A model generated the notes under the pieces. It was not told the origin of the DNA, made no database searches, and saw only the letters and a list, made by a program, of their open reading frames with translations. From positions 1,860,001-1,924,000 of the forward strand of contig NC_014935.1 of assembly GCF_000186245.1 (NCBI RefSeq): 64,000 nt of DNA. Reading direction: 5' to 3'. The stretch is from Nitratifractor salsuginis DSM 16511 (lineage in GTDB: Bacteria; Campylobacterota; Campylobacteria; Campylobacterales; Sulfurovaceae). This document shows, in pieces, positions 2,426-59,515 of this stretch (within the stretch, counting starts at the first letter, position 1; every line of letters starts with the position of its first letter). The position numbers and the translations under genes are program-made.

Positions 2426-4102
<1,677 letters not shown>

Positions 4103-17152: not shown

Positions 17153-18319
17153 ATGGTCAATCGAAACATCATCACTCTCGGCTTCGTCAGCTTCTTTACC
17201 GATATGGCCAGCGCTATGGTCACGTCGGTGCTCCCCATTTTCATCGTCTATATCCTCGATCAGGGGGTGGACAAGCTGGGCTTTGTCGTCGCCGTCGCCA
17301 CCTTTGTCTCCTACGCTTTCCGGATCCTCTTCGGCTACCTGAGCGATCGACTGCAGATCGTCAAACCCTTCGTCGTGGCCGGCTACCTCATCTCGGCCGT
17401 AACCAAACCGATGCTGGCACTCGCCCACAGTTGGCAGGATGTAGCCGCGCTGCGGGGCCTGGAGCGGGTGGGCAAGGCGGTCCGTGCCGCCACCAAAGAC
17501 AGCCTCATCTCCGCCTACAGCGAAGGAAAAAGCGGCCGGAGCTTCGGTTTTCACAAGATGATGGATGTCGCCGGGGAGATGAGCGGGGCGCTGATCGCCT
17601 TCGCCCTGCTTTATTGGGTAGGAAAAAGTGAAGCGGTCTTTAGGGAACTCTTCGCCTGGACCCTCCTGCCGGGTGTGCTGGCGGTGATCCTGGTGATCTT
17701 TTTCGTCAAGGACGTGCCCTACAAAAAGAAAGAAAAGAAGCCCTTCGACTGGAAGGCTGATAAAAAGTTACTCCCTGTTTTGTTCCTCTATTTTCTCTTC
17801 ATCTTTTTCCTCTTCAGCGACAGTTTCTTCATCGTCAAAGCCAAAGAGGCCGGAATCGGGATCGAATTCATCCCTCTCCTGATGGTGCTTTACAATTTCA
17901 CCCAGACGACGCTTAGCTACTTCTTCGGTGTCCAGATCGACCGCTACTCTCCCCACCGCGTACTGGGCGTCGCTATGGGCTTCGGGATCGCCGCGATGGG
18001 CGCCCTCTATTTCGACCGGGTGATCGTCGGATTCATTCTGCTGGGCATTTTCACCGTTGCCGGGCTCAACGCGATTCGTGCGCTCATCAGCGACGAAGCG
18101 GTCAACAAAGGGACGGTCTACGGGATCTTTTACGGCGGCGTCGCCCTCTTCGGAGCGGCGGGAGCTTCGGTCATCGGATTGATCTGGAAACATTTAGGAG
18201 AAGAGCAAGCCATCCTCTTCTCCCTCATCGGACTGAGTCTCGTCTGGATCCTCTATCTTCTGAATGAACTCAGGGCACAACGAAGTAACCGAGTAATGAG
18301 TAATCGAGTAACCGAGTAA
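17153..18319 (+). CDS. Major facilitator superfamily transporter
   Basis: 388-residue inner-membrane transporter with about 12 hydrophobic helices. The loop after helix 2 reads GYLSDRLQIVKP, the MFS signature position (GxLSDRxG-like), and ERVGKAVRAATKDSLIS follows helix 4. Substrate unknown. The final residues SNRVMSNRVTE are written by a GAGTAACC-type repeat array that runs through the stop codon, so the natural C-terminus was probably shorter. It stands alone between folB and a long heptad array. Confidence 0.85.
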   Translation: MVNRNIITLGFVSFFTDMASAMVTSVLPIFIVYILDQGVDKLGFVVAVATFVSYAFRILFGYLSDRLQIVKPFVVAGYLISAVTKPMLALAHSWQDVAALRGLERVGKAVRAATKDSLISAYSEGKSGRSFGFHKMMDVAGEMSGALIAFALLYWVGKSEAVFRELFAWTLLPGVLAVILVIFFVKDVPYKKKEKKPFDWKADKKLLPVLFLYFLFIFFLFSDSFFIVKAKEAGIGIEFIPLLMVLYNFTQTTLSYFFGVQIDRYSPHRVLGVAMGFGIAAMGALYFDRVIVGFILLGIFTVAGLNAIRALISDEAVNKGTVYGIFYGGVALFGAAGASVIGLIWKHLGEEQAILFSLIGLSLVWILYLLNELRAQRSNRVMSNRVTE

Positions 18320-18320
18320 C
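18281..18320. repeat. Octamer array (GAGTAACC/GAGTAATG type) in the 3' end of a gene
   Basis: Units CGAAGTAAC, CGAGTAATG, AGTAATCG, AGTAACCG, AGTAAC. It includes the last codons and the TAA stop of the MFS gene. Same family as 22313-22364, 26580-26665, 36552-36700, 39436-39531 and 59441-59515. Confidence 0.75.
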
Positions 18321-18340
18321 TAGGAATTTTTTTCCGCTGC

Positions 18341-18432
18341 CTCATTCCTCATTCCTCATTCCTCATTCCTCATTCCTCATTCCTCATTCCTCATTCCTCA
18401 TTCCTCATTCCTCATTCCTCATTCCTCATTCC
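18341..18432. repeat. Thirteen-copy perfect heptad array (CTCATTC)
   Basis: CTCATTC repeated 13 times without error, the longest and cleanest array in the window, between the MFS transporter and the response-regulator promoter. Perfect copies suggest recent expansion, and copy number probably varies between strains. Related degenerate arrays lie at 49124-49157 and 50326-50361. Confidence 0.95.
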
Positions 18433-18474
18433 TTCCGTTTTCTCCCCTCAAGCCCTTCCCTCCGGATATTTTTG

Positions 18475-18483
18475 TGCTATAAT
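18475..18483 (+). promoter_or_regulatory. Extended -10 promoter of the two-component system
   Basis: TGCTATAAT (TGn plus TATAAT), 35 bases before the response-regulator ATG. The same 9-mer precedes ispA and addB, with one change ahead of the gene at 34102. The heptad array ends about 42 bases upstream. Confidence 0.6.
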
Positions 18484-18517
18484 TAAAAAAATCTTAAACT
18501 TAACAAAGGCTGAATCG

Positions 18518-19189
18518 ATGCGAATTCTGATCATCGAAGATGAAGTGACCCTGAGCAAAACCCTGGCCGAAGGACTCAAAGAGTGCGGCTACCAAAACGA
18601 TGTTGCCGAGAGTCTGGCCGACGGACGCTACTATCTGGATATCCGTAACTACGACCTCATCCTGCTGGATTGGATGCTGCCCGACGGCAACGGAGTGGAC
18701 CTGATCCCCGAAATCAAAGAGAAACGGCCCAAAACCGCCGTCATCGTCCTCTCAGCCCGGGACGACAAAGAGAGTGAGATCGAAGCGCTCAGGGCCGGTG
18801 CCGACGATTACATCAAAAAACCCTTCGATTTCGACATTCTGCTTATGCGGATCGAAGCCAAACTCCGCTTCGGGGGCAGCAACATCATCGAGATCGAAGA
18901 CTTGATCATCAATCCCGAAGAAGAGAAGATCATCTACAAAGGTGAAACCATCGAACTCAAAGGTAAACCCTTCGAAGTGCTGACCCATCTGGCGATGCAC
19001 AAAGACCAGATCGTCTCCAAAGAGCAACTCCTCGACGCCATCTGGGAAGAGCCTGAGCTGGTCACACCCAACGTCATCGAAGTCGCCATCAACCAGATCC
19101 GCCAAAAGATGGACAAACCCCTGGGGATTGTCACCATTGAAACCGTCCGACGGCGGGGATATCGGTTTTGCTTTCCTCAAAAAGCCTAA
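18518..19189 (+). CDS. OmpR-family response regulator
   Basis: 223 residues. Receiver domain with acidic pocket IIEDE (residues 5-9), phosphoacceptor Asp51 in LILLDWMLPDG, and the conserved Lys in YIKKPFDFD (about 101). The C-terminal winged-helix DNA-binding domain (about 128-223) ends VTIETVRRRGYRFCF, typical of OmpR/PhoB. It overlaps the sensor kinase by 22 bases, so the two form one operon. The signal sensed is unknown; the pair has the general make-up of ArsRS-type systems common in this phylum. Confidence 0.92.
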   Translation: MRILIIEDEVTLSKTLAEGLKECGYQNDVAESLADGRYYLDIRNYDLILLDWMLPDGNGVDLIPEIKEKRPKTAVIVLSARDDKESEIEALRAGADDYIKKPFDFDILLMRIEAKLRFGGSNIIEIEDLIINPEEEKIIYKGETIELKGKPFEVLTHLAMHKDQIVSKEQLLDAIWEEPELVTPNVIEVAINQIRQKMDKPLGIVTIETVRRRGYRFCFPQKA

Positions 19190-20832: not shown

Positions 20833-22326
20833 ATGCCCAAGCGCATCGCCGTCATCGACATCGGCTCCAACTCCGCCCGGTTGGTGATCTTCCAACGCAC
20901 CAGCCGATACGGTTTCCATCTCATCCTCCAGCAAAAAAGCCGGGTCCGCATCGGCGAGGGGGCTTACGAGCACGGCGGGCACCTGCAGCCCGTCGGGATC
21001 CGCCGGGCCTTCGGTGCCCTCCACTCCTTTAGCCACACCCTCAAAGAGTACAAAGTCCACAAAGTCCACTGCGTCGCCACCTCCGCTCTGCGCGACGCTC
21101 CCAACCGCTCCCAATTCCTGGCCCTGGTCCGGAAACGCTTGGGGCTGAAGATCAAAGTGATCGACGGACTCAAAGAGGCCCGTTACGGCGCCGTTGCCGC
21201 GCTCAATCTGCTCCCGGTCGAAGAGGGGATCACCGTGGACATCGGCGGGGGATCGACCGATATGGCCCTGATCCAAAAAGGCAAGATCGTCGAAACCGTC
21301 TCTCTCGACCTCGGAACGGTCAGGATCAAGGAGCTCTTCACCGACAAGGGGCTCAGCCCTGCAGAGGCCCGCAAATACATCCGTGAGCGCCTCGCCGCCC
21401 TGCCCGAACACTTCCGCTCCTCCCTGGCCATTGGGATCGGGGGGACCGCCCGGGCCCTGGCCCGCGGTATTATGCTGCGCAACGACTACCCCTTCGACAA
21501 GATCCACGCCTTCTCCTACAGCTTCAAAAAGGAGAAGGATTACCTCAAAAAGCTGATCGAATCGCCCATCGATCGGCTGGGGGACCTGATGATCAAAAAG
21601 AACCGCTTCGACACTATCCGCGAAGGCGCCCATATCTTCCTAGAGGTCCTCAGACACCTGGAGGCCAAAGAGGTACTCACCAGCGGGGTAGGCGTGCGGG
21701 AGGGAGTCTTCCTGAGCGATCTGCTGCGCCGCGACGGCCTGCGCTTTCCCCGGGGGATCAATCCCAGCATCCGCAGCATCAAAGACCGCTTCGATCTGCT
21801 CAAACTCCCCGAGGGCAACAAACATCAGATCGGCAGACGCCTCTTCGAAGCGATCCGTGAGCGCTATGAGAGCCGGGAAGAGGACCTGAGCCTGCTCAAC
21901 CACGCGCTGAGCCTCTCCAATATCGGCAAGATGCTGACCATCTACAAAGAGCATCAGCACGCCTTCTACATCGCGATGCAGGAGCTCAACTTCGGCTTCA
22001 CCCACTCCCAGATGCTCACCATCGCCCTGCTGATGCGCTCCAAGGGGGATTCGCTCTACTACAAACCCCTCTACCGGCGCTATAAATCCCTCCTGCCCTC
22101 CAAGGAAGTGATCAAATGGCTCAGCTTCGCCTATACCCTGACCCTGATCCTCTATGAAAACTCCTCAGAAGCCAAAATCAGCTTCTCCTGGAAAGACAAC
22201 ACCCTCCAAATCCACAGCGACCGTCCCCTCTACCTCGCCCACGAAGAGATCGAATCCCTCAAAACCCCCAAAGGGGTAAGGATCGAATTGCTTGACGGAT
22301 GGGACGAACTCGTAATTAGTAACTAG
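20833..22326 (+). CDS. ppx: Exopolyphosphatase / guanosine pentaphosphatase
   Basis: Degrades polyphosphate and/or pppGpp. 497 residues of the ASKHA fold: phosphate 1 loop AVIDIGSNSARLVIFQ (residues about 5-20), phosphate 2 loop TVDIGGGSTDMALI (about 134-147), and GIGGTARALARG. An HD-like C-terminal region (about 310-497) follows, as in E. coli Ppx. The stop codon lies within a GAGTAACC-type array; the final SN codons may come from it. Co-directional with the ferredoxin 6 bases upstream. Confidence 0.9.
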   Translation: MPKRIAVIDIGSNSARLVIFQRTSRYGFHLILQQKSRVRIGEGAYEHGGHLQPVGIRRAFGALHSFSHTLKEYKVHKVHCVATSALRDAPNRSQFLALVRKRLGLKIKVIDGLKEARYGAVAALNLLPVEEGITVDIGGGSTDMALIQKGKIVETVSLDLGTVRIKELFTDKGLSPAEARKYIRERLAALPEHFRSSLAIGIGGTARALARGIMLRNDYPFDKIHAFSYSFKKEKDYLKKLIESPIDRLGDLMIKKNRFDTIREGAHIFLEVLRHLEAKEVLTSGVGVREGVFLSDLLRRDGLRFPRGINPSIRSIKDRFDLLKLPEGNKHQIGRRLFEAIRERYESREEDLSLLNHALSLSNIGKMLTIYKEHQHAFYIAMQELNFGFTHSQMLTIALLMRSKGDSLYYKPLYRRYKSLLPSKEVIKWLSFAYTLTLILYENSSEAKISFSWKDNTLQIHSDRPLYLAHEEIESLKTPKGVRIELLDGWDELVISN

Positions 22327-22364
22327 CAACCGAGTAATGAGTAACCGAGTAACCGAATAATGGG
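22313..22364. repeat. Octamer array (GAGTAACC type) at the ppx 3' end
   Basis: Units AGTAACTAG, CAACCGAG, TAATGAG, TAACCGAG, TAACCGAA, TAATGGGG. Begins inside the last codons of ppx. Confidence 0.7.
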
Positions 22365-26579: not shown

Positions 26580-26665
26580 TCACGAATCCTCTCTCAATCC
26601 AAAATCCAAAATCTTCCCATTCTTCTATTTTCAATTATTCGGTTACTCGGTTACTCATCATCAAA
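26580..26665. repeat. Mosaic array (CCAAAAT heptads and CGGTTACT octamers)
   Basis: CCAAAAT twice at about 26598-26611, then CGGTTACT twice at about 26638-26655. Fills the rsmG-ribA gap and shares word order with 36552-36700 (GATTTGATNATGAGTAACCGAG on the minus strand). Confidence 0.7.
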
Positions 26666-36551: not shown

Positions 36552-36700
36552 TTGGAGTCAGTGGTCGTTGGTCGTTGGGAAACATTACTCCAATAATCTA
36601 AAATTTAAAATCTATCATTCTCAATTATTCGGTTACTCGGTTGCTCATTGCTCGGTTACTCATTATCAAATCCATCTTCTCCCATTCTCAATTCTCCATT
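36552..36700. repeat. Long mosaic array (GGTCGTT, CTAAAAT, CGGTTACT, CCATTCTC types)
   Basis: Includes GGTCGTT twice (about 36563-36576), CTAAAATTTAAAATC, CGGTTACT/CGGTTGCT/CGGTTACT (about 36628-36662) and CCATTCTCAATTCTC (about 36675-36700). It runs into the last codons of addA (36688). With the 42-base repeat and the rplM promoter it accounts for the whole 36388-36687 spacer; no gene is seen. Confidence 0.75.
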
Positions 36701-39435
36701 CCCAATCCCTCAATCTCCACTCCCTCCTCCGTCAGATAGACCAGTGCCCCCTCGGCAGGACGGCCGGTGATCGACTCTACCGCTTCGATATAGGTCCGAA
36801 GCTGCCGGCGATGATGCTCGGCGAATTTCCGGGAGCTTTTGTAGTCGAGGATCCGGAAACGATCCCCATAGTCGAGCAGCAGGTCAATCTGCAGAAGCTT
36901 GCCCCGGTGGGCCAGAGGCTGTTCTTTTTGGATCCGGGCACCGCGGAGCATCTGCGTGAAAGGCTCATCCTGCATCAGGGCTTCCATCCGGGATGCGATG
37001 GCGGCGATCTGCTCTTCGCTCAGCTGCGCTCCGTAGCGGTTGCGCACCGCATCCAGAGCTCCCTCGATTCCCTCCGGGCCGAAAGGCTCCATCATCTCCA
37101 GGGCATAGTGCAGCGCCGTCCCGAAGAGGATCGCCTCATAATCGGGCCCCTCCCCCTCATCCTCCGAAGTGGGCGGTTCCTCCTGCCGTCCGTAACGGCT
37201 CAGGACCACATCGGGGATCCTCGGTGCCTCCTCTTGTACCTTGCTTTCATCTTCGATTTTCGGCAACTCTCCCCGTCTCATCGGCACCATCCCCAGAGGC
37301 TCGAAGATCGACTGCTCGGGCTTTTTGAGCACGATCATCCCCTCAGCCGCGCGGGTGAGGGCCACATAGAGCAGATTGAGCCGGTCTTTCTCCGCCGCCG
37401 CTTTGCGCTCCTCCAGCAGCTCGGCGTAAGTTTCGTCGAAGCGCTCCCTTCCGCTGATCCGGTAGAAGAAGCGTTCGATATGCAGATTCTCATTGTAGCG
37501 GGGGATCAGAGCATCCCGCTCCGAACTTCCCCGGCCGCTGCGATCCAGGAGGATCACATAATCAAACTCCAACCCCTTCGAGCCGTGAATGGTCAGGATC
37601 CTCGCCCCCCGAAGGGTATGGGGCGCGACGCCGATGCGGCTGCTTTCGAACTCTTCGAGAAACTCCGGCAAAGACTCGTAGCCGGCGGCGAATTCCAGGA
37701 GCCTGAGGAAATTGGGGTCGTTGTCGAAGGCGGCATAGCTCTCCAGCAAACGATGAAGCACCTCCACAGGGCGCATCGAAGGGCGGTACCATCCCAGGTC
37801 GGGGTGTTCCTTGCGCCCGCTGCGCCGCAGCAGCGCCTCCGCATCCAGCGCCTCCTCCCGGTAGAGATGCTCCGCCATCCGCACCAGGGCCGCGATCTGC
37901 GGCAGCGTGCGCAGCGACGAGCTGGTCTGCAGCACGGTCGGGATCCCCGCCTCCACACAGCGCTCCTGAAGCTCCTTGCCCTCCTTGTTGGTCGCCACCA
38001 AAAAGGCGATGCGCTCCGGATCGATCCCCGCATCAATGAGCCTCAAGGCTTGAGCGGTCGCCTCGGCCAAAGGCTCCTCCGCCTCCAGGACCTCCACATA
38101 CCCCTCCTTCCCACTCTGGGGAATCTGGGGAAGATAGCCCGGCATCACCTCGGCGAACCAGCGGTTGACACTCTCCACGATCCCTTTGGCACTCCGGTAG
38201 TTGTGACTCAAAGGATTCACTTCGATACCGTAATGTTCGGCCACCCGGTCAAAGAGCTCCTCTACCCCGCCCCGGAAGCGGTACAGCGACTGCTTGGTAT
38301 CCCCCACATAGAAGAAAGTGCGAAAATCGCTCTGTCCCTTCCCGGCGAAGATCTCGTCGATCAACGGTTTGAGGAGGAGAAACTGCAGCGTCGAAGTATC
38401 CTGAAACTCATCCAGGAGAATATGGCGGAAGCGGCTGTCGAGGCGAAAATAGAGGAGATCTTTGGAAAGGCTCTCATAGAGGAGGCGGTAGGCGAAATAG
38501 CCCAGGTCGTCAAAGTCCAGCATATTGCGGCTTTTGGCCCGGGAGATGCGGGTGTTGCGGTAGTGGTCGTAGAGCCGTCCCAGACGGTGCAGCACCGCCC
38601 GCTCCCTCGCCGCCGCCCAGCGGCCAAGAAGGGTTCTGAGCTGCTGATACTCCTCCTCGATCCTGGGATCCTTCGGGAGATACTTGCGGTAGTTGCGGTG
38701 CTCTTCGAGGCTGGGATGATTGAAAACTGATTTGGCGAAAAGCTCGGCGACCGTAGCAGGAGCGAAATTGCGCACCGCCGTAGCGGAGGCCCCTACCTGC
38801 TGTACCCGTTCGTATAGAGAAGCCCTCAGCGCCTCGATCTCCCCCTCTAGCCCCCGCAACGTCCCGTCCCCCTCGGGGAAAGGCGGCAGCAGCGGGTCCT
38901 GGGCATAAAGAGAAGCCAGACTCTCCGTCATCCCCTCGACCCGGCGCCGCTCCATCTGAATCGCCAGCTCCACCAGTACGGGCAGCATCCCTTCCCGGTC
39001 CAGCTCCTCCAAAAAGGCTTCCTGCAAACCGACGGAGGCCTCCTCCTTGGTCACGAAGCCGGGATCGAGCCCGATCTCCAGCGCCCCCGCCTTCAAAACG
39101 GAGACGAAAAAGCTGTCCAGGGTCACGATATGGGTCGGACTGTCCAAAAAACGCCGCAGCACCCCCGGTCGCTTGGCAAGAATCTCATCGGGACTCAGAC
39201 CCGTCTGTTTGGCCAGTTCCCCGAGAAAGGGAGCGAAGTCAGCCTCATCGAGCCTTCGGAGCGCCTCGACGACCCGGTGGCGCATCTCGGCGGCCGCTTT
39301 GTTGGTAAAGGTCGCCGCCAGAATCGACGAGGAGGATTCCCCCAGAAAAAGCAGCGCCACATAGCGCACACTCAGGGCAAAGGTTTTGCCGCTCCCCGCC
39401 GAAGCCGAAAGGGCCAGAAAAGGTTGAAATCCCAT
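36688..39435 (-). CDS. addA: AddA-like helicase-nuclease (RecB-type)
   Basis: Superfamily 1 helicase with a C-terminal nuclease, processing double-strand breaks with AddB. 915 residues. Walker A ALSASAGSGKTFALSV (about 7-22), motif II LLDEFQDTS, motif III VGDTKQSLYRFRGG, motif V TIHGSKGLEFDYVILLD, motif VI LNLLYVALTRAAEG, and the nuclease core RILDYKSSRKF near the end. The ATG at 39435 has GAGGAG upstream; an earlier start lies in repeat DNA. The last residues (LGMEN) coincide with the start of a repeat array. Shorter than Bacillus AddA (about 1230). Confidence 0.92.
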   Translation of the reverse strand: MGFQPFLALSASAGSGKTFALSVRYVALLFLGESSSSILAATFTNKAAAEMRHRVVEALRRLDEADFAPFLGELAKQTGLSPDEILAKRPGVLRRFLDSPTHIVTLDSFFVSVLKAGALEIGLDPGFVTKEEASVGLQEAFLEELDREGMLPVLVELAIQMERRRVEGMTESLASLYAQDPLLPPFPEGDGTLRGLEGEIEALRASLYERVQQVGASATAVRNFAPATVAELFAKSVFNHPSLEEHRNYRKYLPKDPRIEEEYQQLRTLLGRWAAARERAVLHRLGRLYDHYRNTRISRAKSRNMLDFDDLGYFAYRLLYESLSKDLLYFRLDSRFRHILLDEFQDTSTLQFLLLKPLIDEIFAGKGQSDFRTFFYVGDTKQSLYRFRGGVEELFDRVAEHYGIEVNPLSHNYRSAKGIVESVNRWFAEVMPGYLPQIPQSGKEGYVEVLEAEEPLAEATAQALRLIDAGIDPERIAFLVATNKEGKELQERCVEAGIPTVLQTSSSLRTLPQIAALVRMAEHLYREEALDAEALLRRSGRKEHPDLGWYRPSMRPVEVLHRLLESYAAFDNDPNFLRLLEFAAGYESLPEFLEEFESSRIGVAPHTLRGARILTIHGSKGLEFDYVILLDRSGRGSSERDALIPRYNENLHIERFFYRISGRERFDETYAELLEERKAAAEKDRLNLLYVALTRAAEGMIVLKKPEQSIFEPLGMVPMRRGELPKIEDESKVQEEAPRIPDVVLSRYGRQEEPPTSEDEGEGPDYEAILFGTALHYALEMMEPFGPEGIEGALDAVRNRYGAQLSEEQIAAIASRMEALMQDEPFTQMLRGARIQKEQPLAHRGKLLQIDLLLDYGDRFRILDYKSSRKFAEHHRRQLRTYIEAVESITGRPAEGALVYLTEEGVEIEGLGMEN

Positions 39436-39531
39436 AGTGACTCCTCTATTGTGAGTGTTAAGTCTTGAGTGTTGAGCGTTGAGAGCTTTCATTGCTCGGT
39501 TCCTCGGTTACTCACTCCTCACTCCTCACTA
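39436..39531. repeat. Mosaic array filling the addB-addA gap
   Basis: On the minus strand it runs GTGAGGA repeats, GTAACCGAG/GAACCGAG, then CTCAACG, CTCAACA, CTCAAGA, CTTAACA, CTCACAA heptads, ending next to the addA ribosome site. Every base between the two genes except that site belongs to the array. Confidence 0.8.
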
Positions 39532-50304: not shown

Positions 50305-50321
50305 GCGTTGCAAGGCAACGC
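50305..50321. repeat. REP-like hairpin (GCGTTGC type) in the carA leader
   Basis: GCGTTGC-AAG-GCAACGC perfect 7-bp stem, 25 bases before the carA start. Confidence 0.6.
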
Positions 50322-50325
50322 TTTC

Positions 50326-50361
50326 CTTAATTCCTCATTCCTCATTCCTAACTCCTCATTT
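50326..50361. repeat. Heptad array (CATTCCT type) between DUF507 gene and carA
   Basis: TAATTCC, TCATTCC, TCATTCC, TAACTCC, TCATTTG: five units in phase. Confidence 0.75.
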
Positions 50362-54317: not shown

Positions 54318-54438
54318 GTTAAAGAAGTTGATGGAGGATTGAAAATGGAAGATTGAAGATGATTTTGGATTAGGGGATTTTGGATTTTGGATGAAGAATC
54401 AACTTTCTCAGCTCTCAACTCTCAACGCTCAACACTCC
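54318..54438. repeat. Mosaic array running into the mutY 3' end
   Basis: GATGGAG/GATTGAAAATGGAAGATTGAAGATG, GATTTTG/GGATTTTGGATTTTGG, then CTCAGCT, CTCAACT, CTCAACG, CTCAACA heptads (54407-54434). The last three units are inside mutY and write its final codons. Confidence 0.8.
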
Positions 54439-55395
54439 AAAATACTTTTTGAAAATTTTTCGGTCGATGCCGCCCAAGGGGAGTTCTTCAATCGATTTGG
54501 GGGTGAAAAATCCGATCGGCTTGTCATAATCTTTGGGAAGGACCGCAACCCGCCAAATCTCCGCTTCCAGTGCAAAATGACTGTAACGGGCGAGCTCCCG
54601 CCCCAGAAACTCTCCCGAGACTTCATCTTCGAATCGGGGAAAATGCCAGAGCCCTCCGTGAAAACGCTCCCGGCTTTGGCTCAGGGCCCAGGCTCCACCT
54701 CGTTCACAAAGAAGGATTTTGGCCCGACGCACAGGCGTTTTGGAAGCCTTTTTCGCTTCGGGGTAGCGCTCGGGGGCTTGCCTGCCCCGGCACCCCTCCC
54801 GAAGGGGACAGAGATCGCATCGGGGATCTTTGGGAGTGCAGATCATCGCTCCCAGATCCATCATCGCCTGGTTGTAATCGTAGGGGCGTTTGGCGTCAAA
54901 GAGTCGCTCGGCCATTCGCCAAAGCTCCCGCTCCGTGGCCTTCCGGCGCCGGAAAAAGCGGTAGAGGATGCGGCGGACATTGGCATCGAGGATCGGGGCC
55001 GCCTCATCAAAGGCGAAACAGGCGATCGCCCGGGCCGTGGAGCGGCCGATCCCGGGCAGACGCTCCAACTCCTGTGAAGTGGAGGGGAGCACGCCGTTGC
55101 ATAGACGGGCAGTGCGGTGCAGATGGCGCGCCCGGCTGTAGTAGCCCAGCCCTTCCCACGCTTTGAGCACCTCCTCTTCGGAAGCCTCAGCCACCACCGC
55201 CAGAGTCGGGAAACGTTCCAAAAAAGGGAAATAGAATCGCTCCAGTACCGTCGACACCTGGGTCTGCTGGAGCATAATTTCACTCAAATAGATCCGATAA
55301 GGGTCGCGGGTTTGGCGCCAGGGGAGATCGTGGCGGCCATGCTCCCGGTACCAAAGATTCAGGCGCTCGTGAAGCTCTTTATATCGTGAACCCAT
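54415..55395 (-). CDS. mutY: A/G-specific adenine DNA glycosylase
   Basis: Removes A opposite 8-oxoguanine. 326 residues. Catalytic Glu in LSEIMLQQTQVSTV, HhH motif LERLPGIGRSTARAI, catalytic Asp in ILDANVRRIL, 4Fe-4S site CTPKDPRCDLCPLREGC (C-x6-C-x2-C-x5-C), and a C-terminal NUDIX-like domain. ATG 55395 gives the family N-terminus. The C-terminal GVLSVES is written by a CTCAACG-type array, so the original end was probably different. Confidence 0.94.
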   Translation of the reverse strand: MGSRYKELHERLNLWYREHGRHDLPWRQTRDPYRIYLSEIMLQQTQVSTVLERFYFPFLERFPTLAVVAEASEEEVLKAWEGLGYYSRARHLHRTARLCNGVLPSTSQELERLPGIGRSTARAIACFAFDEAAPILDANVRRILYRFFRRRKATERELWRMAERLFDAKRPYDYNQAMMDLGAMICTPKDPRCDLCPLREGCRGRQAPERYPEAKKASKTPVRRAKILLCERGGAWALSQSRERFHGGLWHFPRFEDEVSGEFLGRELARYSHFALEAEIWRVAVLPKDYDKPIGFFTPKSIEELPLGGIDRKIFKKYFGVLSVES

Positions 55396-55415
55396 CCGCT
55401 CGTCTTCGGAACGTT

Positions 55416-57251
55416 TCAACCCTCTATCAGGGCAATTTTCTGACCGATCTCCAGATAGCGTCGATAGTAGGCTTCGACGAACTTTCGCACTTCGGGTGTG
55501 ACCGGCAGGAAATGGCCGTCGACCTTTTGGGCGTAACATCCCAGGTAATCCGCGGCATCCTCTTTGCGGACGTAGTGGGTGGCGAGATCCCGGTACGCCT
55601 GCCGATACCCTTCTTTCATCCGGTCATAGGCAGCCGGATCGATATGGACCCGGACCCCTTCGAAATCGATAGCACGGCTCCGATAGAGGATCTCCAGATG
55701 GATCAGCCCTTCACAGTAGTAGGGGAGCACCTCCCCCACTTCCCGCCACGCCATCAATCCGACCGCCCGGCTGACGAGGTCCTCCATCACCTCCTCTTTA
55801 AGCGAAGCCTCTTCGTAATCGAAAAAGGCCATCAAGCCGCCCGTCGTCGCTTTGAACTCTTCGATGTTCTTGAATTGCCCGCTTCGGTTCATCGCCACTT
55901 CGGTATCGCTGTCGATCCAGAGGATATGCCCGTATTCGTGGCCGATGGTAGCGATCTCGTAAAGGCGCATCCAACGCTCGGGCTGCTCCAGCAGGACTCG
56001 GCGCTTGCGCACCAGCTCCTCCCCGAGGCTCTCCAGGCTCAGCTGCATGACCGGCTTGTCCTTTTGGGACTGCCGCACATAATCGGCATAGGCAAAGATC
56101 TTTTTGCCCAGTTCGCTGGAGACCTTTTCATCGTTGGGGACTACCTGGGCGGAGAAGAGGCCGTTGAACTCCGCACCGTAATAGAGCATCGGCCGGCCGA
56201 TGTAGAGTTGGGTCTTTTCGATCTGATCGACGTTTTTGGCGAAGATCCTCTGCGCTTCCAGGCCCAGCTCCACCGCCATATGCGCTCCGAAGGCCCGGAT
56301 CTGCTCCGGAACTTTGACGGCGGTCTGCAGCCGGGGGTTGATCACCCGCAGGTCCCACTCCAGAGCCACCGCTTTGCGGTAGTGATCTTCGTAATACTCC
56401 AGGGGATGCCCTACCTGGATCGGGGTCGTCACCCCCATCCACGCCCGGTCCACCTCGGCCCAGTAGGCCACCAGCTCATCTGGATCGGTATGGGCAAAAG
56501 CCCGCTTCAGCGCCCGGAAATACTCCAGCCAGGGTTCTTTTTGACCGTAGATCTTATCCTCCAGACCCTCCAGCGTCTCCAGGAGCATCGTGAGCGCCTG
56601 AGTCACTTCACGGACCTCTTCGGCAAAGGCTTCGGCATAACTCACCCGCCGATACCCCCCGCTGTCGGGCACCAGCACCGAATAGCAGCGATCGGCCTCC
56701 TCCCCTTCGTGGCGATCCAGAAGCTTCTGCTCCCGAAGCGTTTCGAAGATCTTCTCTTCATCGCCGTTGAAAAGCTCCAGTAATTCCCGATTGATCCCAT
56801 GGATGATGTGAGAAGTCCAGCCGTTCTGCCAACGGGTCACCGCCAGGCCCACGGCGTGGACCCCTGAAATGAGTGAACGGTAGAAGGGGGTCAAAAGCCC
56901 CTGCTCCTCGATCCAGACGATCAGGGATTCGAAACGCTCCAGATGGAAGTCGGCGACGAAAAAGTAGGCTTTTTCCTTTGCCGCGATGATCTCCTCGGCA
57001 GAAAAACCCTCCTGCTTCATCACCTGCTCCAGGGCATCCTCCCTGAGGTTCACCAGCCGTGTCAGAGCCGCCATCTCCGTTTCGGGGTTCTTGGGCAGGC
57101 CCAGCTGTTCCAGCATACGTTCCACCGTCTGTGTCGCCTCGGGATTCTCTTTGCCGTGGAGGATCTCCATATAGGCTCCCAGCTCCTCCTGACGACGCTG
57201 GAGCTCATCGTAGAGCGCCTGAAGGTCTCTCATAAAGGACTCTCTCATCAT
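55416..57251 (-). CDS. ciaB: CiaB-family protein with HEXXH metallopeptidase motif
   Basis: 611 residues, closely the length of Campylobacter jejuni CiaB (about 610), and mostly helical. [17 protein letters not shown] (about 436) contains [25 protein letters not shown] some 30 residues later supplies a Glu, the gluzincin arrangement seen in M49-like peptidases. No signal peptide or membrane helix. Named 'invasion antigen B' in pathogens, but present in environmental relatives, so the ancestral job is likely a peptidase. Starts 4 bases inside rdgB; mutY lies 20 bases downstream. The family call rests on length, neighbourhood and memory of the family, not on an alignment. Confidence 0.7.
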
Positions 57252-59440: not shown

Positions 59441-59515
59441 TGAGTGTTGAGCACTGAGCCTTCAAAGATTTTATTGCTCGGTTACTCGGTTGCTCATTAC
59501 TCATTATTCTCAATT
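59441..59515. repeat. Mosaic array after tkt
   Basis: TGAGTGT, TGAGCAC, TGAGCCT heptads (from 59441), then CGGTTACT, CGGTTGCT, CATTACT, CATTATT. On the minus strand it begins 5 bases after the tkt stop. Confidence 0.75.

Follow-up and report, generated by a model that had tools for sequence, protein, structure and literature searches.

A short tandem array at a gene edge supplies the C-terminus of an MFS transporter in Nitratifractor salsuginis and belongs to a strand-polar population of repeats

Mazel et al. are said to have described, in 1990, several tandem heptanucleotides within one genome, that of the cyanobacterium Calothrix. In the sections drawn on here, Rehm et al. 2015 (PMC4692102) report intergenic heptameric repeats in Xanthomonas and Nostoc, built of GGGAATC or GGGGA(C/T)T, with four units as the commonest length and with 70 and 75 convergent pairs in two Xanthomonas and few in Nostoc. 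These repeats lie nearer the 5′ neighbouring ORF whatever the ORF orientation. Downstream copies occupy the coding strand, within 50 bp of the stop or overlapping it, and upstream copies the non-coding strand; G-quadruplexes are discussed there and no role was found for them. The TAACTGA direct repeats of Beggiatoaceae, as presented in the cited parts of MacGregor 2015 (PMC4679880), are abundant intergenic heptamers whose forward strand carries stops and whose sets overlap CDS ends only briefly, 132 + 15 of 170 sets pointing toward a start codon. Bacillus tandem repeats of constant size and variable sequence have units of 20–21 or 52 nt in the portions cited of Subirana and Messeguer 2021 (PMC8161180), where the search floor was 10 nt, so that 7-mers would appear as 14.

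Here we describe arrays of 7- and 8-bp units in Nitratifractor salsuginis DSM 16511, in and beyond a window of 64,000 nucleotides (NC_014935.1, positions 1,860,001 to 1,924,000). With the Rehm repeats, as far as the cited sections set them out, these arrays share a period of 7, a mode of about 4.4 copies, an intergenic position, convergent pairs and an inward strand rule, with the G-rich strand leading away from the gene edge into the gap. The Rehm repeats are of one G-tract heptamer type per genome and are linked to G-quadruplexes, whereas Nitratifractor has many heptamers and an octamer without GG; unlike them, its arrays often change heptamer at the same slot and have a linked REP-like hairpin. 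Abundance between genes and limited overlap with CDS ends due to stops recall the TAACTGA repeats as cited above; those have a single sequence, unlike the units GAGTAAT and GAGTAACC here, and our octamer arrays lie near starts in only 2/62 cases. A fixed unit length with varying sequence is a likeness to the Bacillus repeats as presented in the portions cited, although the unit lengths differ. A dispersed hairpin with compensatory changes beside arrays recalls REP/BIME sequences; unlike these, as described in the cited part of PMC3733652, it has no GTAG or CGTC tag and no adjacent transposase was found. Judged by its units, the octamer class resembles the Rehm repeats in placement and is not a G4 repeat: GAGTAAT and GAGTAACC contain no GG, and the runs of at least three G needed for a G-quadruplex are absent. 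A G-quadruplex cause was ruled out for the octamer class on that absence of GG, and the G-quadruplex idea for Xanthomonas and Nostoc therefore cannot be the general cause.

The MFS transporter locus comprises four features.

17153 to 18319, plus strand: MFS transporter gene (PF07690, E=4e-29), its final 11 codons and stop within an array
18281 to 18321, plus strand: 7/8-bp array GAAGTAACC-GAGTAATGAGTAATCGAGTAACCGAGTAAC, its G-rich strand in sense with the MFS gene
18340 to 18433, minus strand: opposing array of 13.4 perfect CCTCATT copies, GAGGAAT on the minus strand (TRF match 100%, score 188)
18518 to 19189, plus strand: response regulator gene, downstream of the MFS gene (PF00072 and PF00486)

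The array at the MFS stop mixes 7- and 8-bp units, GAGTAAT (7) and GAGTAACC (8), and was called by TRF at 18284–18320 with period 8, 4.8 copies and a score of 53. GAGTAANNGAGTAA has 63 copies in the genome and 0 for the reversed-letter control. Across the array the MFS reading frame is ...QRSNRVMSNRVTE*, and the 11-residue C-terminus SNRVMSNRVTE and its stop are translated from it, as the earlier note had read. That note had also proposed a comparison with orthologues. The MFS protein is present in 10/13 genus genomes, the source genome counted, and the 11 congener matches that cover the C-terminus end in unrelated short tails, with an array in 0/11. The tail is thus array-derived. On the far side of the gap, the GAGGAAT array points inward from the response-regulator start. 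Neither an intrinsic terminator (a G+C-rich stem followed by a T run, sought in 18100–18560) nor an Rfam covariance-model match (sought in 17900–18700) was found, and both were ruled out as accounts of the locus.

Further genes of the window end in or just before arrays.

20833 to 22326, plus strand: ppx
22317 to 22361, plus strand: array at the ppx stop, contributing ...SN and TAG
26634 to 26656, minus strand: array 16 nt past the stop of the GTP cyclohydrolase II gene (identity from Pfam)
36624 to 36661, minus strand: GAGTAACC-class array 26 nt past the stop of the addA-like gene
36688 to 39492, minus strand: addA-like UvrD helicase gene (Pfam)
39491 to 39513, minus strand: array 18 nt past the stop of the PD-(D/E)XK nuclease gene
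50305 to 50350, minus strand: GAGGAAT array (50330–50350), 36 nt past the DUF507 gene stop, then a REP-like hairpin (50305–50326)
54406 to 54433, minus strand: heptamer array of GTTGAG(C/A) units, with a 19-nt overlap at the mutY stop
54415 to 55539, minus strand: mutY (HhH-GPD, Pfam)
59473 to 59509, minus strand: array 17 nt past the transketolase stop

The MFS, ppx, addA-like and mutY genes had been singled out as four genes ending at arrays. All four do end in repeat units; their repeat sequences differ, so there is not one common repeat. The end of ppx is ATT AGT AAC TAG, within TAGTAACTAGCAACC units, and that of the addA-like gene, GGA ATG GAG AAT TGA, sits in degenerate GGAGAAT-like heptamers before the GAGTAACC array. 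In the window, 6/6 arrays of the GAGTAACC class share the sense of the gene, at positions from stop overlap up to 26 nt past the stop; with 7.6% of strand-specific intergenic placements falling within 30 nt past a stop in sense, the probability of 6/6 is about 2e-7. At 4067–4092, 2.9 copies of GGAATGGGC code for the end of the Cpn60 chaperonin. This repeat does not look like a gene-edge array of the MFS kind and is presumably the usual GGM tail.

The wider survey used an unbiased own sample of 464 kb (the window and 20 evenly spaced 20-kb stretches) and targeted own loci picked for carrying GAGNAA arrays, the latter amounting to at least 113 clusters in 79 stretches, of which 76 were read and the other three lie within the window. 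The unbiased sample contains 35 period-7 and 7 period-8 arrays, and shuffled sequence contains 0. Across periods 4–6 and 9–13 it has only one array each at 9 and 12, and periods 14 and 16 are multiples of 7 and 8. Congeners gave 20 period-7 arrays in 170 kb and 0 at other non-multiple periods; 126 kb of other family genomes gave 2 period-7 arrays. Across many heptamers, copy number clusters at about 4.4 copies, or about 31 bp. The occurrence of several tandem heptamers in one genome is a likeness to Calothrix. GAGTAACCGAGTAA is confined to the source genome (1/175 family genomes; 0/174 of the others), and GAGTAACCGAGTAATGAGTAA had 0 matches in the genome_contigs collection, from which the source genome is possibly absent. 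GAGGAAT x3 occurs in 30/175 family genomes. Its distribution is patchy across species, with high counts in three genomes of another genus of the family (18, 65 and 71 array matches in G083, G109 and G115).

Some arrays are very long and perfect: AACTCTC with 27.6 copies (G000:C1:1504111-1504475), AACGACC with 15 (1313307) and GAGGAAT with 21 (99210). Such exceptional arrays are possibly hypervariable. A single called ORF (L160/L081, G000:C1:1007771-1008130) holds five arrays of different repeats and possibly has a miscalled start or is a gene built over a spacer.

Placement relative to stops and starts was scored on genes called with a simple custom caller, whose starts are approximate. The octamer class yielded at least 71 arrays, of which 8 lie inside called genes and 1 at a stretch edge; among the 62 analysed, 47 have a stop as their nearest gene edge and 15 have a start (null 36.0 and 26.0), a stop count matched in 0/2000 simulations. 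Within 20 nt of a stop there are 38/62 (null 15.4), with 0/2000 simulations as high, and within 20 nt of a start 2/62 (null 8.6). At these stops, 37/38 genes share the sense of the array. Of the GAGGAAT arrays (at least 49 found, 45 analysed), 24 are nearest a stop and 21 a start (null 23.9:21.1); 17 have a stop within 20 nt (null 8.7), 17/17 in sense. Other heptamers of the unbiased sample divide into 18 near stops and 20 near starts. The stop bias, 47:15 for the octamer as opposed to 24:21 for GAGGAAT, is therefore a property of the octamer class and not of arrays overall. The claim that array-ended genes are unlikely by chance is thus borne out for the octamer class, whereas a preference for gene 3′ ends, read in the note as preferential arrival and for which a genome-wide comparison of distances to stops and starts had been proposed, describes that class and does not extend to a general rule.

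Arrays with stops in all frames supply new C-termini that replace a few native residues. Overlap with a CDS end at stops occurs in 27/58 arrays with stops in all three frames and in 2/37 stop-less arrays, because G-rich strands with a stop in every frame close the frames that enter them. The observation that genes end where an array begins is therefore real, and partly a reading-frame effect. Unrelated proteins end in ...NRVTE, ...NRATE or ...NEE (examples are EQLRNRATE, EQLSNRATE and KNNRVTE), and most orthologues do not; an EE ending is also found in one orthologue, at 526521. The same C-terminal peptide on unrelated proteins is a warning for annotation and for studies of C-terminal motifs.

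With few exceptions, an extragenic 7/8-bp array has its G-rich, C-poor strand directed away from the gene edge and into the gap. Read in gene sense, this gives G-rich sequence past a stop and C-rich sequence ahead of a start, and in gaps with two arms both face inward. On the strand in which G outnumbers C, about 6% of the bases are C. Inward polarity was found in 39/49 arrays of the unbiased own sample, 116/134 targeted own arrays and 64/70 arrays of congeners (507 kb, mostly genome G043), counts that omit inside-gene or edge rows and G=C ties (9+1, 26+9 and 5+2, respectively), stop-less arrays that prolong an open frame being liable to be scored as inside a gene. Where a gap holds both kinds, every G-rich array precedes every C-rich one in 51/52. 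The polarity is seen in co-directional, convergent and divergent gaps and is weaker in the divergent ones (8 in and 4 out in the unbiased sample, 8 in and 5 out among targeted loci). Stop-less arrays are also inward, at 30/37 near stops and 20/28 near starts, which rules out the supply of stop codons as the cause of orientation. Background base skew was ruled out as well, array-free gaps at stops having a value of −0.06.

The rule extends beyond the family. The GAGGAAT 28-mer occurs in at least 119 stretches of the genome_contigs collection, and 77 of 80 loci were analysed, assigned by record title to Bacillota, Bacteroidota, Campylobacterota, Verrucomicrobiota, Chloroflexota, Cyanobacteria and others. 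Among the matches listed, which include several contigs per genome and are thus not independent species, arrays at most 60 nt from a gene edge are inward in 51/54 (in:out 34:2 for GAGGAAT and 17:1 for other heptamers), and those farther than 60 nt are 24 in and 16 out. This count excludes period-8 arrays and leaves out 26 arrays inside genes, 28 at edges, 7 with weak skew and 3 loci shorter than 2.5 kb.

Comparison with a congener bears on how long such arrays persist. Both genomes have arrays in 12 of 62 strand-consistent syntenic gaps, the own genome alone in 13, the congener alone in 7 and neither in 30 (odds ratio 4, P 0.024, with an own set that is array-enriched by design). In the 12 gaps with arrays in both, most arrays occupy matching slots, G-rich ones beside the left edge and C-rich ones beside the right, with 5 heptamer classes shared; gap 598074 departs from this pattern. 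With the same slots and mostly different heptamers, slots therefore appear to persist while heptamers change.

A REP-like hairpin, GGTWDGCRTTGCnnnGCAAYGC (about GGTWNGCGTTGCnnnGCAACGC), is dispersed in the genome with compensatory variants. Several gaps also have small hairpins with CTTCGG-type loops between arrays and beside gene edges (for example L172 4130 and L198 1016). Y1 transposase genes are present as seven IS200-like copies of equal score with 143-aa frames (G000:C1:1266380-1266742 and six other places) and as two non-IS200 proteins, one of 256 aa with a C-terminal HTH (L136:2123-2893) and one of 169 aa, possibly with a frame-shift close to the end (L135:1480-1989). A transposase link was ruled out at both non-IS200 genes, neither having a hairpin or array beside it.

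We consider it rather probable that the MFS tail is a by-product of a genome-wide polar array population at gene edges. The tail is read from one of the many short arrays, of period 7 or of period 8 in a derivative specific to the species, that lie beside genes in the genus. At gene edges such arrays may form and be replaced through a polar DNA process, and not through selection for the C-terminal peptide; most likely, heptamer tracts next to small hairpins are copied, and slip, again and again. Purifying selection would keep them just outside the stop or just upstream of the ribosome-binding site, and C-terminal rewriting would be a tolerated by-product. Several observations count against this reading: it does not account for 47:15 in the octamer class as opposed to 24:21 for GAGGAAT, polarity is weaker beyond 60 nt from edges and in divergent gaps, and copies of the heptamers outside arrays lean inward too (77:35 own, 30:20 congeners), so that a functional signal is possible.

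Selection on RNA could instead keep G-rich, C-poor repeats past stops and C-rich, G-poor ones before starts, through less spurious ribosome binding upstream of starts, back-up stops or a loose stem that spans the gap. GAGGAATG is similar to a Shine-Dalgarno sequence with an added ATG, arrays of the octamer class favour stops and lie in sense, and the arms of the MFS gap can pair (MFE −19.4 and −11.7 for shuffles, z −2.93). Such selection accounts for orientation at starts but not at stops, where stop-less arrays keep the inward direction given above. Pairing of the two arms was rejected as the cause of polarity, since arms within a gap are no more complementary than arms from other gaps (−15.5 and −14.7, sd 1.9, in the own genome; −14.0 and −14.6, sd 2.6, in congeners). 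On balance, we regard selection on RNA as unlikely.

A slightly less likely reading takes the arrays as the ends of a REP/BIME-like mobile element, consisting of a G-rich arm, a hairpin and a C-rich arm, that inserts in gaps. Copies of the hairpin with at most 2 mismatches number 60, with 0 in the control. Read from the foot strand, 37/45 unique hairpins follow a G-rich array within 60 nt and 0 follow a C-rich one; the array past the hairpin is C-rich in 15/16 (1 tie), and 43/498 random intergenic points have an array. Yet most listed arrays have no hairpin, and the two arms of one gap carry different heptamers, sharing a class in 3/34 where 2.45 are expected. The hairpin also lacks the GTAG/CGTC tags described for REPs in the cited part of PMC3733652, and the stretches surrounding the two non-IS200 Y1 genes contain no hairpin or array.

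Simple polymerase slippage on heptamers already present, where tolerance outside genes is all that determines position, seems doubtful. The Discussion of PMC4692102 quotes a previous hypothesis that linked a bacterial heptamer excess to polymerase slippage, and long perfect arrays of 13, 21 and 27 copies exist. Slippage gives no strand rule, however (64/70 in congeners; 51/54 across phyla among the matches listed), and neither a 4.4-copy mode nor octamer arrays restricted to one species. Chance, with array-ended genes picked by eye, can be set aside: only four genes had been named, and the 38/62 octamer arrays that have a stop within 20 nt refute it.

A more speculative and improbable proposal concerns the form that a polar process might take. 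Gene edges could be capped in a telomere-like manner by untemplated or self-templated G-rich heptamer synthesis on 3′ DNA ends: after a break in the spacer, each gene-side 3′ end would gain about four heptamers, and the ends would be rejoined. If true, this would explain the inward polarity at stops and starts and the independent heptamers on the two arms. It would also explain the near-constant 31-bp length and the stacking of arms, as well as small C-terminal replacements and fast turnover, across phyla.

The placement rule itself is already known for G4-capable heptamers in Xanthomonas and Nostoc, as set out in the cited sections of PMC4692102. New here are its validity in the absence of G-tracts, the many different heptamers that follow it in a single genome, the replacement of heptamers at orthologous gaps and the link to a REP-like hairpin. 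The literature searched, which leaves many journals outside, held no prior account of the rule for non-G4 heptamers, of many heptamers per genome or of the hairpin link, and no paper on both Nitratifractor salsuginis and tandem repeats. We know of no mechanism that explains a polar process of the kind proposed here. Such a process, shaping bacterial spacers, is what the strand rule points to, since it holds at both gene ends, whatever the type of gap, and in several phyla.
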